In this document: positions 18,577-62,341 of the stretch, in pieces | Layout of the letters: each line of letters opens with the position of its first letter | How positions within the stretch are numbered: the first letter of the stretch is position 1 | Assembly (NCBI GenBank): GCA_900107185.1 | Contig: FNPA01000009.1 | Location: forward strand, 62,001 to 126,000 | Length of the DNA stretch: 64,000 bases | DNA from: Ruminococcaceae bacterium YAD3003 | Lineage (GTDB): Bacteria > Bacillota > Clostridia > Saccharofermentanales > Saccharofermentanaceae | Direction: 5' to 3' | Program-made: the position numbers and the translations under genes | The notes under the pieces: model-generated | Databases searched by the model: none | What the model was told of the DNA's origin: nothing | Seen by the model: only the letters and a program-made list of their open reading frames with translations

Positions 18577-18679
18577 CTGCTTTGTTTATTTGAGAGCGGC
18601 TGTCACTTAGGTGGCATTTTTTTGTTAGACTTTCGAACGGCACGGCGTGGGATTTTCGAGAAAGCAGAAAATTACTGAC

Positions 18680-18789
18680 GGGAAAAATATGGGAGTAAAA
18701 CGCCTCAATTACTCCCAAAAATGAGCAAAACCACTCCAAATTGCAGAAAAATGGGAGTAAAACCGACGTTTTACTCCCAAAATAATCCC
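18680..18789 (+). repeat. GGGAGTAAA multi-hairpin element, copy 1
   Basis: 110 bp. Order: outer GGGAAAAATA, hairpin 1 (TGGGAGTAAAA / TTACTCCCA), middle with ACTCCA and ATTGC, hairpin 2 (TGGGAGTAAAA / TTTTACTCCCA), outer ATAATCCC. It lies between the TRIC-type gene and the convergent thrH-like gene. It contains no reading frame. Three more copies occur at 35930, 52471 and 59476. Confidence 0.8.
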
Positions 18790-18807
18790 ATGTTATAAAA
18801 CCAGCAC

Positions 18808-26857: not shown

Positions 26858-27108
26858 ACCCACTAATCTCTTGATTATCGCGATTTAGTGGGTATTTTTT
26901 TGATCTTAATTGCTCGAAAACTCTCTCTTATACCCACTAACTCAAAGATATTGACCATTTAGTGGGTACGCGGCGAACTTTCGCTGCTCAGAAACACCCA
27001 CCAATTGAACGTTTTCATTACTTTAGTAGGTATTGTCACTCCTTCACACAGTAACTAAAGGCTTTCGGATACCCACTAACCGGAAGGTTTTCGCACTTTA
27101 GTGGGTAC
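26858..27108. repeat. Array of four TACCCACTAA...TTAGTGGGTA hairpins
   Basis: Four inverted repeats with 10-nt arms and an interior of exactly 18 nt each: 26858-26895, 26932-26969, 26996-27033 (degenerate arms CACCCACCAA/TTAGTAGGTA) and 27071-27108. Starts are 74, 64 and 75 bp apart. Interiors and spacers differ. The array fills the gap between two convergent genes and contains TTTCG/CGAAA words in its spacers. There are no cas genes and the units are not CRISPR-like. Confidence 0.85.
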
Positions 27109-27116
27109 CAACAAAA

Positions 27117-27663: not shown

Positions 27664-30600
27664 TTAAATTGTAGGGTCATTTTCTTCTGAATACTCTTCC
27701 TTTTTTCTGATGAGATAAAGGCCTGTAGCTGCAGCTGCTGCAATCATGAGGGACGCGATTACGTATCTTGTGTAATCGACTGTTTCACCTGTGGAAACAA
27801 CTGCTGCGGCAACCTTCGTACCGATCGTAACTATAAACGGTGAGAAGGACTTTGTCTCAAATGTGAGTGTCAGATTCTTAGCGTTATAAACTGCTTCGAT
27901 CAACTCAAAACCGTCTTCCAACATATGGAGTATTACGACTGTCTCGCCGTCTTCGAGGTCAAGTTCTTCCTTCAATACGAGTGTGATCCTTACAGGGAAA
28001 CCGGGATCATGTACGGCTCCATCCTTATCGAAGAGAGTGATGTCGAATGCCATCGGGAAAACAACACCTGTGTATCCTTCATCAGCTACCTGCTTCTTAA
28101 CTGCAGCAATATCTTCATCATCTGCTTCTTCGATATTGAGTTCAGATACTACGAGAAGATAATCATCGATCTCATCTTCGCTGAGTCCTACGAAAACAGC
28201 AGATACGGAAGTGAGACTTTCAGTAAAATTCATTGTCTCAGTCTCAGGAATCATGCCCCATGCATCGATCTTCAAGTAATCATGCTTATCCGGATACTTG
28301 ATGCTGTTCGCACCTATAGGGGTAGTAAGGCACTCTTCATAATCACCCGCGAGCCAGAAAATTGCATAACCGTTAATGCCCTTTATCACTACTTCATAAG
28401 GACATTCACCGTACGAGATCTCGTAATAAGTGTAATCCTCAGGATCAGCCTTTCCACACTCGAAAGCAGGATACTTAATACCATCAGGAGTGCTCAGAGG
28501 TTTGACTTCTTTGCCGTTCTTATCCAGAACCGTCATGCTGATATCTATCTCTGTAACATCAATACCAATTACCCAGCACTGAGCAAAATAGATCTCGATT
28601 GAATTCACGCCGTTCTTGATGTCCTCTACTGTAACGAAGTGTCCGGGTATGAACTCTTCACGTTCTTCGAGGTTGGAAACCATGACTTTCTCACCGTCAA
28701 CATAGTAGATCAGCTCGAAATCAGGAGACAAATCGTCAGGCAGTCTGTTTGAAATTACGGCGTCGCCCGGAATAGCCTGGCCAGGTTCAACAGGAGCGAA
28801 ATCTTCGCCTTCCTTTGTACCGATAAGAACTTCGCCGTCAATTACTACGACGTCATAACAGGGAACCTCTCGTTCGCCATTTCCATTTTCCGGACGCGGA
28901 GGATCGTTGCCGGGTTCCTGAGTATTCTGCTTAGGTTCAGCTGTAAATCCTTCAGGTACATTTGCTTCAGGAACATCATTAGCAGTTGTTCCTACCATGA
29001 AATCAGAGAATCCTGTTGTATTGAAGAATACTGTATGAGTCTCAGCATCGTACGTTGTATCAAGATACTCCGGTTCGCCTTTGTTTCCGTTTGCATCTTC
29101 CGGAATATGGATAATCTGGACATTCTCGTCACCCGGATCAAAGTCTTCACCAAGATCCAAAGCTACCCATACATTTCCGCCATTAAGATCATCATGCAAA
29201 GCATCTTTCCAATAATCATTAGTATTAGCAATCTTGAAACGGTTGTCCAAATCAATGCTGAGATATTCCTGAACTTCAATATCATTATCCCAGTCAGTAT
29301 TTGCATAACTGTTCTTTTCAGCATTAGTCAATTCAGTAACGGTAGCAAGACCGGAACCTGAATCGATAACAGTCTCAGAGAGTTCAATGTTACCCTGTAC
29401 TACCGGACCACCTTCTACCTTAAGTTCATCAGGCTCAAGAATGAACTGCGAACTGAAATGTACACAATTATCATGTACATCAAATACATAGATATTTGCA
29501 TCTGCATCATCTGCAGATGTTGTAGGAACATATTCAGGGAATCCATTCTCGCAAACAGTATCGAGCTGATATCCACGTTCAGGAATAAGCTTGAAAACTA
29601 TTTTATATCCGGATTCTACCGTGATACCCCCATTGCCCCATTCATCCTTACAATTAGCAAGATCATATAACCAGGATATATCATTGCCACTACCATCTAA
29701 AACAGACAGTATTTCAGCTGAACCATGATCAAAAACACAATGTTCTGCTATCAGATTGCCTTGTATATGATCATCAGGAACATTTGAATCAGACCACTCG
29801 ATTCGTGCTGCATGAGCATTATCACCAACTACTTTAATTGTTATTAAACCATCTTCTTCAGGATCGAAAGAATTGTCAGAAAGGTCTGCTGCAAAATAAT
29901 CAATTTCTGCATAACTGAAAATCTTCGGAACAGTTTGGTTATCTATAACCTGAGTTACCTTTGCTCCGTTTACTTCAACATATTTAAAACGGAAATTCTC
30001 ATATTCTTCTTCTCCGTCTCCGCTATTAAAACCTTCAGGCGTATGGAAAGGCTGCAAATGGAAACGGTTAATCGTTCCCTCGCAATAAACTACAGTAGAG
30101 TCGCTAAAATCATCAGCAACAAACTCATTATGCTTCATTGCATACCTTACGGAACCTTGTTCTGTACGCTCTTCAACATGGTCTTCAACATTCACATTGC
30201 AAATAACAAAGAACTCACACCAAATGTTTGAAGAAACCTCTACTCGGGTAACGGGATTTAAATCGATAACCCAATTGACTTTTGAATTATTGTTTCCACC
30301 GGGAGCTTCTCCACCCTGATCGCCGCCAGCAGGAGCTTCACCACCCTGGTCACCACCAGCAGGAACTTCTCCACCCTGGTCACCACCAGCAGGAGCTTCG
30401 CCGCCCTGATCGCCACCAGCAGGAGCTTCACCACCCTGGTCGCCACCAGCAGGAACTTCTCCACCCTGGTCACCAGCAGGAACTTCACCGCCCTGGTCGC
30501 CAGCAGGAACTTCGCCGCCCTGGTCACCACCAGCAGGAGCTTCGCCACCCTGTTCACCACCAGCAGGAGCTTCGCCGCCTTGATCGCCTGGAACAGGAGG

Positions 30601-30981
30601 TTCGCCACCATTATTAGCAGGATTAAAGAATCCCCTGTATTGAACCAAATGGTTCACTATATATGACTCTCCCTCATGAAGAGTAACATGGGCACTGCCA
30701 TCCATAAGATTGATTTCCAAATCAGTATCTATAGAATCGGAACCATTAGAGACTTCCAATGTGATAGTAGAACCCGGATACAGGTATTCATTTTCTGCAA
30801 CCGCCTGACTACCACTCTTTAATCCTGAGCAGTCACCACTTTCTTCATCATAAGTAAAAGTGTAGTTTTCAGCACTTGTTTGCTCATCTGCTCTGACTAT
30901 AAATTCAGTCAACGGGCAATTGGAAATCAACAATCCAAATGCTGTTACTGATGCAACTGTGTACCTAAATAAACGTTTCAT
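27664..30981 (-). CDS. Large secreted, membrane-anchored surface protein with Gly-Asp-Gln-Gly repeats
   Basis: 1105 residues from the ATG at 30981 (AAAGGAG upstream). A signal peptide (about 1-31) is followed by an acidic domain, a Gly-rich tandem region at residues 125-229 of ten GDQGGExPAG-like units, several hundred residues of acidic beta-type sequence, and a C-terminal hydrophobic helix (YVIASLMIAAAAATGLYLI) with an RKKEE tail. The segment VVSTGETVDY before the helix resembles a sortase signal without its LP. The repeats probably act as a flexible stalk. Base composition of the middle (29.2-30.1 kb) is more AT-rich than its surroundings. The ligand is unknown. Confidence 0.8.
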   Translation of the reverse strand: MKRLFRYTVASVTAFGLLISNCPLTEFIVRADEQTSAENYTFTYDEESGDCSGLKSGSQAVAENEYLYPGSTITLEVSNGSDSIDTDLEINLMDGSAHVTLHEGESYIVNHLVQYRGFFNPANNGGEPPVPGDQGGEAPAGGEQGGEAPAGGDQGGEVPAGDQGGEVPAGDQGGEVPAGGDQGGEAPAGGDQGGEAPAGGDQGGEVPAGGDQGGEAPAGGDQGGEAPGGNNNSKVNWVIDLNPVTRVEVSSNIWCEFFVICNVNVEDHVEERTEQGSVRYAMKHNEFVADDFSDSTVVYCEGTINRFHLQPFHTPEGFNSGDGEEEYENFRFKYVEVNGAKVTQVIDNQTVPKIFSYAEIDYFAADLSDNSFDPEEDGLITIKVVGDNAHAARIEWSDSNVPDDHIQGNLIAEHCVFDHGSAEILSVLDGSGNDISWLYDLANCKDEWGNGGITVESGYKIVFKLIPERGYQLDTVCENGFPEYVPTTSADDADANIYVFDVHDNCVHFSSQFILEPDELKVEGGPVVQGNIELSETVIDSGSGLATVTELTNAEKNSYANTDWDNDIEVQEYLSIDLDNRFKIANTNDYWKDALHDDLNGGNVWVALDLGEDFDPGDENVQIIHIPEDANGNKGEPEYLDTTYDAETHTVFFNTTGFSDFMVGTTANDVPEANVPEGFTAEPKQNTQEPGNDPPRPENGNGEREVPCYDVVVIDGEVLIGTKEGEDFAPVEPGQAIPGDAVISNRLPDDLSPDFELIYYVDGEKVMVSNLEEREEFIPGHFVTVEDIKNGVNSIEIYFAQCWVIGIDVTEIDISMTVLDKNGKEVKPLSTPDGIKYPAFECGKADPEDYTYYEISYGECPYEVVIKGINGYAIFWLAGDYEECLTTPIGANSIKYPDKHDYLKIDAWGMIPETETMNFTESLTSVSAVFVGLSEDEIDDYLLVVSELNIEEADDEDIAAVKKQVADEGYTGVVFPMAFDITLFDKDGAVHDPGFPVRITLVLKEELDLEDGETVVILHMLEDGFELIEAVYNAKNLTLTFETKSFSPFIVTIGTKVAAAVVSTGETVDYTRYVIASLMIAAAAATGLYLIRKKEEYSEENDPTI
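30295..30609. repeat. In-frame tandem repeat encoding GDQGGExPAG units
   Basis: Ten units of 27 or 30 bp coding for 9-10 residues inside the surface protein gene. Neighbouring units are almost identical at DNA level and differ mainly in an Ala/Val codon and presence of one Gly codon, so slippage could change copy number. Confidence 0.85.
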
Positions 30982-31194
30982 ACAGGACTCCTTTCTTTCG
31001 ATGTGCGTCAAACAAAGAAACAATTTCCAAATATAAAAACATTTTTACATGGAGGCACGTCGAATACCATTAATTCCCTGTGAACAGATAGGGTTTTAAG
31101 TAAAGATTCTGTGTATATTTGTTGGCGAGTCAAAGTAAAAGAGGCCGCCTCTTTCGAGATGACCCCTGATAAAACCGGTTAAAAGCCTTGCAGA

Positions 31195-35910: not shown

Positions 35911-35929
35911 GGCAGGCGCTACAACACAT

Positions 35930-36040
35930 GGGAAAATAATGGGAGTAAAACGGTGGTTTTGCTCCCATTTTCACTCCATTTTGGATGGAATTGCTTAAAA
36001 ATGGGAGTATTTGCATGCCATTTACTCCCAAATTTTTCCC
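35930..36040 (+). repeat. GGGAGTAAA multi-hairpin element, copy 2
   Basis: 111 bp with the same order as copy 1: GGGAAAATAA, hairpin 1 (TGGGAGTAAAA / TTTTGCTCCCA), ACTCCA, GGAATTGCTTA, hairpin 2 (TGGGAGTA / TTTACTCCCA), TTTTTCCC. It lies 19 nt after the lipoprotein stop codon in the convergent gap to gpmI. Confidence 0.82.
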
Positions 36041-36145
36041 ATCACAAAATCACCACCTTCACGATTCCTGTAGAATTCACGATATTACCGCTTTTGAATG
36101 TTTCGCGAAAAGCCGTCACCCTCGCCCCTGCCTCTCACCACAAAA

Positions 36146-39477: not shown

Positions 39478-39507
39478 GATTGTCGTTAATACTTGAGTGC
39501 ATTTTTC

Positions 39508-39609
39508 TTGGCGTTTTCGAGCGGTTTTCCGCCAGGATTTTTGCACTTTGGGATGAAATGGCGTTTTTTCTGGCGCTTTTGAGCTAATTTACGCCAAGAT
39601 TTACGCCAA
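39508..39609. repeat. TTGGCGT/ACGCCAA multi-hairpin element
   Basis: About 102 bp between convergent genes. TTGGCGTTTT opens it, then CCGCCA, TGGCGTTTTTTCTGGCGC, ACGCCAA and a final ACGCCAA. Words on one side are complementary to those on the other, giving nested stems. It resembles the GGGAGTAAA elements in size and layout but uses another word. Confidence 0.65.
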
Positions 39610-52440: not shown

Positions 52441-52470
52441 CGCGCGGTTGGGCAACTCGTTATATCGCTT

Positions 52471-52581
52471 GGGAAAAATATGGGAGTAAACAGCTCAAAA
52501 AACTCCCATATTCACTCCATTTATAGTTAAATTGCTTATTTTTGGGAGTCTGACATGATGTTTTACTCCCAAATTATTCCC
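52471..52581 (+). repeat. GGGAGTAAA multi-hairpin element, copy 3
   Basis: 111 bp: GGGAAAAATA, hairpin 1 (TGGGAGTAAA / AAACTCCCA), ACTCCA, AAATTGCTTA, hairpin 2 (TTGGGAGT / TTTACTCCCAA), ATTATTCCC. It occupies the gap between the GH120 terminator and the PD-(D/E)XK-like gene. Confidence 0.82.
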
Positions 52582-52677
52582 GTCGTTTTCACAAGCCAAT
52601 TTCCAATACATTTTTATCGATTGTAGACATTGTCGGTTATGTCGATTTTGTCGTGAAAAACCGACAAAGAACCGTTT

Positions 52678-52689: not shown

Positions 52690-53460
52690 ATGGACTTAAT
52701 GAAGAAATACATCCCAAGAGAGTATCTGGCTCTCAAAATTAACTACTGCCGTCAGCAGCTCGAGAAGCTGCCAATTATTGTTTTGCAGGAGAATATTACA
52801 TGTGCTCCTAGAATAGTTATAGGCAAACACCGATATCTTGTTTCCTCAGAAAATGGCAAGTATTGTCTTGAACTGAATCAAAAACGCGAAAGTCTTGAAC
52901 GGGAACTTCAATTCTATCAGACAATATGGGATTGCAACTTCAAGGGTGAGCCGTTTCCTGAATGCGAACCAATAAGAGCTAACCGAACTTTGTTCATCGG
53001 CAATAACGACCAGGTTGTTATGAATAAGGAATTCTTTGACAGCCTTGAAAATGATGCAAACACGAAATATCCAAAGTCTAATAACTATATATTTGACGGA
53101 ATCAGATACCGCTCAGCCGCTGAACGTGAAATAGCAATTTTCTATACAGATATGGGCATACCGTTCAAGTATGAACCAAGAATTACACTTAGAGGACTGA
53201 CTTTCCCGATATTTAGTGATTTTATCCTCTACTTTGAAGAGTTGGATAACTGCAAATTTCACGAACACTTTGGAATAAAGAATTCTTCTGAATATCTAAA
53301 GGAAACAAAGATAAAATACGGAAACTACACGAACGCAGGACTAATTCCTGATATCGATGTACTGTTCACTTACGCAAACGACGAAAACACATTCGATCCA
53401 AGGTTTCTGTCAGCAAAATTAAACGCAGCTATATACGGAACAATATGCATTAATAAATAA
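52690..53460 (+). CDS. Orphan PD-(D/E)XK nuclease-like protein
   Basis: 256 residues. Residues 137-195 read like a restriction-endonuclease fold: FDGIRYRSAAEREIAIFY, GIPFKYEPRI, FSDFILYF, FHEHFG. Candidate active-site residues are E145, D177 and E192. The last motif is E-H-F instead of E-x-K. The N-terminal part is charged and helical. The gene is clearly more AT-rich than its neighbours, has a leaderless-type start and stands alone next to a repeat element, which suggests transfer. No methylase is nearby. Confidence 0.6.
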   Translation: MDLMKKYIPREYLALKINYCRQQLEKLPIIVLQENITCAPRIVIGKHRYLVSSENGKYCLELNQKRESLERELQFYQTIWDCNFKGEPFPECEPIRANRTLFIGNNDQVVMNKEFFDSLENDANTKYPKSNNYIFDGIRYRSAAEREIAIFYTDMGIPFKYEPRITLRGLTFPIFSDFILYFEELDNCKFHEHFGIKNSSEYLKETKIKYGNYTNAGLIPDIDVLFTYANDENTFDPRFLSAKLNAAIYGTICINK

Positions 53461-59454: not shown

Positions 59455-59475
59455 AAATGCATCCGTCGTCCTGAC

Positions 59476-59586
59476 GGGAAAATTTTGGGAGTAATCCCCC
59501 CTCGAAAACTCCAAAAAATGAGCAATTTGCTTCGAATTGGAGTAAATCCGGGAGTAATCCGGGCAAAATACTCCCATTATTTTCCC
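59476..59586 (-). repeat. GGGAGTAAA multi-hairpin element, copy 4 (inverted)
   Basis: 111 bp in the opposite orientation to copies 1-3. Read on the minus strand: GGGAAAATAA, hairpin 1 (TGGGAGTA / TTACTCCC), ACTCCA, AAATTGCTCA, hairpin 2 (TTGGAGT / TTACTCCCAA), TTTTCCC. It lies between glgP and the zinc-ribbon gene. Confidence 0.8.
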
Positions 59587-59743
59587 AAGTGCATATTCCG
59601 ACACGAAAACGCGTCAATTCATGAATGTTTCGCACATTGCGCTCCGCCGACACCAAAACCGCAGCGCAAACACCACCCCAAAACTGCTTTTTAGCCCAAC
59701 AAACGCCCCCTCCCACCGCCAAATTCCTAAAATATTATATATA

Positions 59744-61858: not shown

Positions 61859-62341
61859 ATGGCTGACGAAATCATCAAGAAGCAGATTACCAAGGAAGGT
61901 TACGACGAATTACAGAACGAGCTTTCCGAGCGTAAGACATCCAAGAGAAGCGAGATCGCTAAGAGAATCGAAGACGCTAAGGCTCAGGGCGACCTTTCAG
62001 AGAACTCCGAGTACGATGAAGCGAGAGCTGAACAGGCAGAGAACGAGACTCGTATCGAAGAGCTCGAAGCAATCCTCAAGTCTGTTGAAGTTGTTGACGA
62101 TTCCAACCTCACCACAGATAAGGTTTCTCTCGGTTCAAAGGTAACTCTTCAGAATACAGCAACAAAGCAGGAGTACACATATAAGCTCGTTGGTGAATCC
62201 GAGATCGACTTCAAGAAGAAGAGAATTTCCGAGAACTCACCAGTAGGCAGAGCAATCTCCAACCAGAAGAAGGGTAAGACAGTTTCCGTTTCCACACCTT
62301 CCGGCATCATCAAGTACAAGATCATCAAGATCGAGAAGTAA
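61859..62341 (+). CDS. greA: Transcription elongation factor GreA
   Basis: 160 residues. It rescues backtracked RNA polymerase by stimulating transcript cleavage. The N-terminal coiled coil carries the tip acidic residues in GDLSENSEYDEA (about 42-53), and the C-terminal domain ends in SPVGRAISNQKKGKTVSV. Ribosome site GAGGAG. It lies between guaB and lysS, a common greA-lysS order in Clostridia. Confidence 0.96.
   Translation: MADEIIKKQITKEGYDELQNELSERKTSKRSEIAKRIEDAKAQGDLSENSEYDEARAEQAENETRIEELEAILKSVEVVDDSNLTTDKVSLGSKVTLQNTATKQEYTYKLVGESEIDFKKKRISENSPVGRAISNQKKGKTVSVSTPSGIIKYKIIKIEK

Follow-up and report, generated by a model that had tools for sequence, protein, structure and literature searches.

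Word-specific 110-bp palindromes adjoin genes for putative PD-(D/E)XK nucleases in Saccharofermentans

The stretch of DNA analysed here (the window) comprises 64,000 nucleotides of Ruminococcaceae bacterium YAD3003, positions 62,001 to 126,000 of contig FNPA01000009.1 (C15:62001-126000 of a 2.67-Mb genome), and carries four copies of a 110-bp palindromic element built on the short word GGGAGT, one of them close to a gene for a putative PD-(D/E)XK nuclease. Such elements and such genes are paired widely in the genus Saccharofermentans, a finding in which we have high confidence. To explain it we lean towards a reading in which the elements are the DNA substrates of these small PD-(D/E)XK-type nucleases, in a system that would resemble REPIN/RAYT in its logic while relying on an unrelated nuclease.

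Elements of constant anatomy and interchangeable word

An earlier note on this DNA had listed four copies of 110-111 bp and described the order of their words, and both claims were borne out, since all four copies lie where it had placed them, far beyond chance, with the same word order in each. The pattern GGGAGT-N8-25-ACTCCC occurs six times in the window against 0.05 expected and was absent from 100 shuffles, and each copy folds far better than its own shuffles (z of -5 to -8.5). In most copies the palindrome is about one base longer per side than the earlier borders. The features concerned are the following.

18679..18790, no strand assigned: element copy 1, GGGAGT word (pattern scan and genome-wide element search), with GGGAAAA at 18680-18686, GGGAGT at 18691-18696, ACTCCC at 18711-18716, GGGAGT at 18753-18758, ACTCCC at 18773-18778 and an outer TCCC at the right end
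35929..36041, no strand assigned: element copy 2, GGGAGT word, with convergent genes on either side
39497..39608, no strand assigned: TGGCGT/ACGCCA element that shares the anatomy but not the word, with a lipoprotein-like gene on one side and a queF-like gene on the other
52470..52582, no strand assigned: element copy 3, GGGAGT word, with the nuclease gene 52690-53460 about 109 bp downstream of it
52690..53460, + strand: putative PD-(D/E)XK nuclease of 256 aa, proposed cognate partner of the GGGAGT elements (profile, fold and alignment evidence)
59475..59587, no strand assigned: element copy 4, GGGAGT word, after a terminator-like hairpin and downstream of a glycogen phosphorylase-like gene

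All four copies had been described as lying in gene-free gaps downstream of genes. They are indeed intergenic, and the genes around copies 1 and 2 converge, but those around copies 3 and 4 are co-directional, so that these two copies are upstream of one gene as well as downstream of another.

The whole genome holds a fifth GGGAGT copy, outside the window (C9:128165-128274). The earlier note had also proposed a covariance-model search for more copies, which gave at least 25 elements of the same anatomy in this genome; GGGAGT is thus one word of a larger superfamily. Four of the five GGGAGT copies lie within 41 kb of one contig. A model built from these five copies (R1) retrieved full-length elements with the words TGGCGT, GTGTAGT, TGGGTCT, GTGCGTAA, TGTGGGTAA, TGGACTCAA and GTGCTAAA from this genome and its congeners, and a second covariance model (R2) added TTGACG, GTAAAC and others; CTAGGA and TCGACG are also present in the genome studied here. 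Matches to R2 were found in 18 of 39 sampled genomes, every one within Saccharofermentans, and in none of 15 genomes from other families of the order.

Across unrelated words the elements are dyad-symmetric, have a fixed length of 110 +/- 3 bp and can be aligned almost without gaps. Each consists of eight short words, arranged as w W W' w' w W W' w' and separated by A/T tracts. The words are spaced by about 10.5 bp and the GC content shows a strong 10.5-bp period that none of 5000 column permutations reached, which places the words on the same face of the helix. The word is therefore interchangeable and the conserved anatomy is what defines the superfamily; this had been overlooked in the earlier note, as had the TGGCGT element and the partner gene 109 bp from copy 3.

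The divergence of loops around conserved pairing words, previously taken as a sign of selection on structure, is real, but the words scarcely differ among members of the GGGAGT family and no compensatory pair was found, so that the four copies demonstrate conservation of sequence rather than of structure. Covariation beyond chance, absent inside that family, is present across word families, where paired words change together. One long dyad (structure C) scored 0.421 for covariation, a cloverleaf (A) 0.384 and two tandem hairpins (B) 0.339, compared with 0.18 for shuffles and at most 0.16 for slid controls. A single full-length palindrome thus fits best, with a modest margin over A and B. The dyad can be seen directly in a mixed element (C10:25344) whose outer pair is GTGCATAAT with ATTATGCAC and whose inner pair is TTACTACAC with GTGTAGTAA, and which a second mixed element (C23:4920) resembles. 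Complementarity exceeds expectation in the words only, the loops being at chance level.

Two further arrangements were observed. At L211:3449-3682 a half-element is repeated in tandem with a period of about 62 bp, which suggests that the half palindrome is a building block and that structure B may be the evolutionary unit. In genome G008 (L128, L129, L131 and L135) composite repeats contain two or three elements of different word in fixed order, copied as one unit.

Nuclease-like genes paired with the elements

The gene at 52690-53460 belongs to a family of proteins of about 260 aa whose C-terminal half matches PD-(D/E)XK nucleases. Neither the element nor the protein could be assigned convincingly to a family by sequence searches of Pfam, NCBIfam and the PDB. 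A search of PHROGs returned only marginal Holliday-junction-resolvase-like matches, and a separate phage search found no match. The AlphaFold model is of good quality (pLDDT 88.9) and gave weak Foldseek matches, the foremost being to restriction-like endonucleases (R2 retrotransposon protein, Bax1, Cdn1 and 3ijm; best E 0.017). By profile, the window protein matched the C-terminus of PADLOC PDC-S68 with an E-value of 7e-5 and distant members did so down to 5e-28, one distant member also matching HEAT_CxxC_PD-DEXK (E 4e-8). Residues E145, E162, D177 and H193 are invariant in 62 homologs and E192 nearly so; from these models and alignments the protein appears to possess a core of the PD-(D/E)XK type whose motif is an E-H variant, the lysine being replaced. 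The C-terminal core is the most conserved part and the N-terminal half the most variable (about residues 30-110), a distribution which suggests that the N-terminal half may read the word. Homologs are encoded in 84 of 85 Saccharofermentans genomes, with up to 14 per genome, and a scan of named genomes gave 70 homolog loci, almost all from rumen or gut Saccharofermentans-type assemblies. Homologs are also encoded by the cultured isolate Ruminococcaceae bacterium AB4001.

The pairing came to light when Blast searches of the surroundings of elements placed elements of different word beside homologous genes. In the genome studied here, five nuclease paralogs are each adjoined by an element of their own word.

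GGGAGT: window gene 52690-53460, copy 3
GTGTAGT: C13 (L063), two elements flanking the gene
TGGCGT: C18 (L073)
CTAGGA: C15:58089 (L065)
TCGACG: C29 (L259)

All 46 R2 elements detected in 67 named homolog loci (358 kb) lie between -274 and +310 bp from the gene. By our estimate, the density in the genome studied here (25 elements per 2.67 Mb, on the assumption that all are intergenic) predicts about three where 46 were seen. For the 36 elements with E<=0.01, in 32 loci, a crude binomial test that ignores the preference of palindromes for intergenic DNA gave P ~6e-32. Because some of the elements used to train R2 are themselves gene-adjacent, a word-blind dyad detector was also applied; it reached a score of at least 32 near 48 of 65 genes, the best score elsewhere in the loci being 32. 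The gene is flanked on both sides by whole palindromes of the same word in direct orientation at L201, L219, L220, L236 and L063, and pairing extends to a divergent clade of the genus (L263 and L286).

Protein and element distances are correlated (Mantel r 0.42, P 0.0005). Words are shared below 10% protein divergence and often already differ at 17-20%, and only a weak correlation remains when close pairs are removed, which argues mainly for co-inheritance with fast change of the word.

Homologs of the nuclease were found in 13 of 181 sampled genera of Clostridia. The 110-bp element was not detected beside these class-level homologs in the R2 search, and tandem hairpins of one word were found within 600 bp of the gene in 18 of 40 loci of distant homologs from other Clostridia families and in none of the shuffled sequences; AGTCCGTGC/GCACGGACT, TACGGATAA/TTATCCGTA and TTTCGGCCT/AGGCCGAAA are examples of their words. 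Given these arrays, the 110-bp element is one form of a wider association between nucleases and palindromes. The window itself holds three tandem intergenic hairpins at 26926-27110 with the word ACCCACTAA/TTTAGTGGGT, of which the relative G064 has a seven-fold array; this is probably the tandem arrangement that goes with a more distant paralog of the nuclease.

Dispersal of the elements and competing explanations

Near-identical copies of elements are present in genomes G008, G018 and G007, with 9 to 10 in G018. Two unrelated sites (L123 and L127) share 97% identity over exactly the element (111 bp) and have little else in common. At the site orthologous to that of copy 1, G094 and G106 have a gap of 58-60 bp that lacks any element, and other congeners carry palindromes of other words. 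Near-identical multi-copy elements and presence or absence at one site indicate mobility, and together with the cognate nuclease gene they make non-autonomous mobile palindromes the best supported of the readings offered in the earlier note. The GGGAGT copies cluster round their own gene, four of the five being on its contig (P 0.0005), and the GTGTAGT copies likewise cluster on the contig of theirs.

Orthologs of window positions 18577-18807 (L292-L307) show a different palindromic repeat at the same intergenic spot in many congeners; between G027 and G107 the outer words GCTCAG/CTGAGC correspond to GCCCAG/CTGGGC. Genome G018 also contains about nine copies of a 295-bp repeat (L104-L113) that ends in a terminator-like hairpin and has a GTAAAC-word element inside, shortened relatives of which were seen in G000 (C18:48467), G106 and G066.

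In the mechanism that we propose, there would be one nuclease gene per word family, with the elements as its recognition palindromes, and the nuclease of 52690-53460 would most likely recognise the GGGAGT word set. The words might be presented on one helix face every ~10.5 bp as a dyad-symmetric array, or in a hairpin extruded by the palindrome. We infer that the protein binds its word and cuts at the element, and that the cuts would help the 110-bp element to be copied in trans into further intergenic positions, in the way supposed for RAYTs and REPINs. By this analogy the nuclease may well be what moves the palindromes. Whether the elements thus represent an undescribed class of mobile DNA in Clostridia, in which a stand-alone PD-(D/E)XK nuclease disperses its own word-specific, helically phased palindromes, seems to us evenly balanced.

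Several observations weigh against this mechanism. The inspected flanks of the elements showed no direct target-site duplication and nothing consistent, and a search for empty sites by way of the 295-bp repeat of G018 gave only partial deletions of the element and no clean pre-insertion site. Sites that lack the element, for which the earlier note had suggested a search in sister strains, do exist at the copy 1 position, but the orthologous intergenic sequence is too diverged there for the junction to be aligned. Since most words have only a single nuclease gene, no unit able to transpose autonomously was seen. About one quarter to one half of homolog loci, according to which detector was used, are without an adjacent element, and the Foldseek E-values are weak, 0.017 being the best.

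A less likely explanation, though one that we take seriously, is that the palindromes are operator or recognition sites, by which the nuclease would regulate its own gene or mark self DNA in a restriction-, defence- or addiction-like manner, the dispersed copies being decoys or protective sites. Helical phasing is typical of protein sites, the element lies 7-310 bp from the gene and often upstream, and the nuclease domain is shared with the candidate defence proteins PDC-S68 of PADLOC. However, elements are found downstream at least as often as upstream, and their near-identical multi-copy dispersal and presence or absence resemble spread; neighbouring genes, considered without a systematic survey, included no noticed methylase, toxin or antitoxin partner.

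It is improbable that these are ordinary palindromes like miniature inverted-repeat transposable elements (MITEs), moved by some other transposase, with the nuclease as a passenger captured beside one copy. Discrete 110-bp units with precise borders, and composite repeats carrying several different elements, would fit such an origin, which nevertheless leaves unexplained the private-word element within 310 bp of tens of independent nuclease genes, the change of word along with the protein and the arrays beside distant homologs.

A family of structured RNAs or transcription-boundary elements, a reading that the earlier note had entertained and that strong predicted RNA folds, intergenic location and compensatory changes between word families would suit, is very improbable, and a structured RNA is not supported, since the element has no Rfam covariance-model match, words are nearly invariant within a family, the elements have near strand symmetry and a 10.5-bp GC periodicity suggestive of helical phasing, and the G-U test gives no sign of RNA-level selection. 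At paired sites G-U and A-C combinations number 45 and 29 (P 0.35) and are equally frequent given composition; this lack of bias favours DNA over RNA, and the recognised molecule is probably DNA.

Comparison with known systems

The nearest analogue in logic is REPIN/RAYT, in which a Y1 HuH transposase of the IS200/IS605 type is associated with repeats consisting of a 5' GT(A/G)G head followed by a GC-rich palindrome (PMC2817692, PMC3116915). Common to both are intergenic palindromes of two inverted halves able to form one long hairpin, compensatory changes, tandem clusters beside the partner gene, and a partner that adjoins some copies, is associated with repeats of its own word and has paralogs matching the word families. 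The partner here, however, is predicted from profile and fold matches to have a PD-(D/E)XK rather than a HuH Y1 fold, no GTAG head is present in the aligned elements, whose ends vary by word, and the host belongs to the Clostridia. The eight helically phased words are a further difference, as are the whole direct-orientation palindromes that flank the partner, RAYT genes being flanked by single inverted REPs. With the defining enzyme and head motif absent, membership of REPIN/RAYT was rejected.

Bacterial MITEs (MITEAba12, PMC6382973; reviewed in PMC10969869) are likewise short, non-coding, palindromic and dispersed with discrete borders, but for the present elements we found no parent insertion sequence that shares their ends and saw no target-site duplication, and the length is constant at 110 +/- 3 bp whatever the word. 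PADLOC PDC-S68 and HEAT_CxxC_PD-DEXK share a homologous nuclease domain; in PDC-S68, a model of candidate defence proteins, this is the C-terminal domain. Those models describe proteins of ~1200 aa or with HEAT repeats from candidate defence systems, whereas the protein studied here is a stand-alone one of ~260 aa with another N-terminal half and adjoining palindromes. Our literature search, in which subscription papers were outside coverage, turned up no article describing either the repeats or the nuclease, in agreement with the earlier note, which knew of no described family with this word order. The whole has the look of a selfish repeat system that had not been described before.

By linking an uncharacterised gene family with a specific DNA substrate, the pairing opens the function of that family to direct testing. 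Should the nuclease move the palindromes, systems like REPIN/RAYT would have had a second origin, in an unrelated enzyme. Should it do no more than bind them, there would be a large natural set of nuclease-word pairs from which to derive a recognition code, as well as a self/non-self or regulatory system of a new type. If the reading as an undescribed class of mobile DNA is true, the rapid switching of the word within a scaffold fixed at 110 bp would amount to a natural library of nuclease-site pairs, and in either case a class of palindromic repeats in rumen and gut genomes is accounted for.

Elsewhere in the window, positions 27664-31023 encode a large cell-surface-like protein of 1119 aa with a TTG start and a tandem GGEAPAGGDQ repeat.
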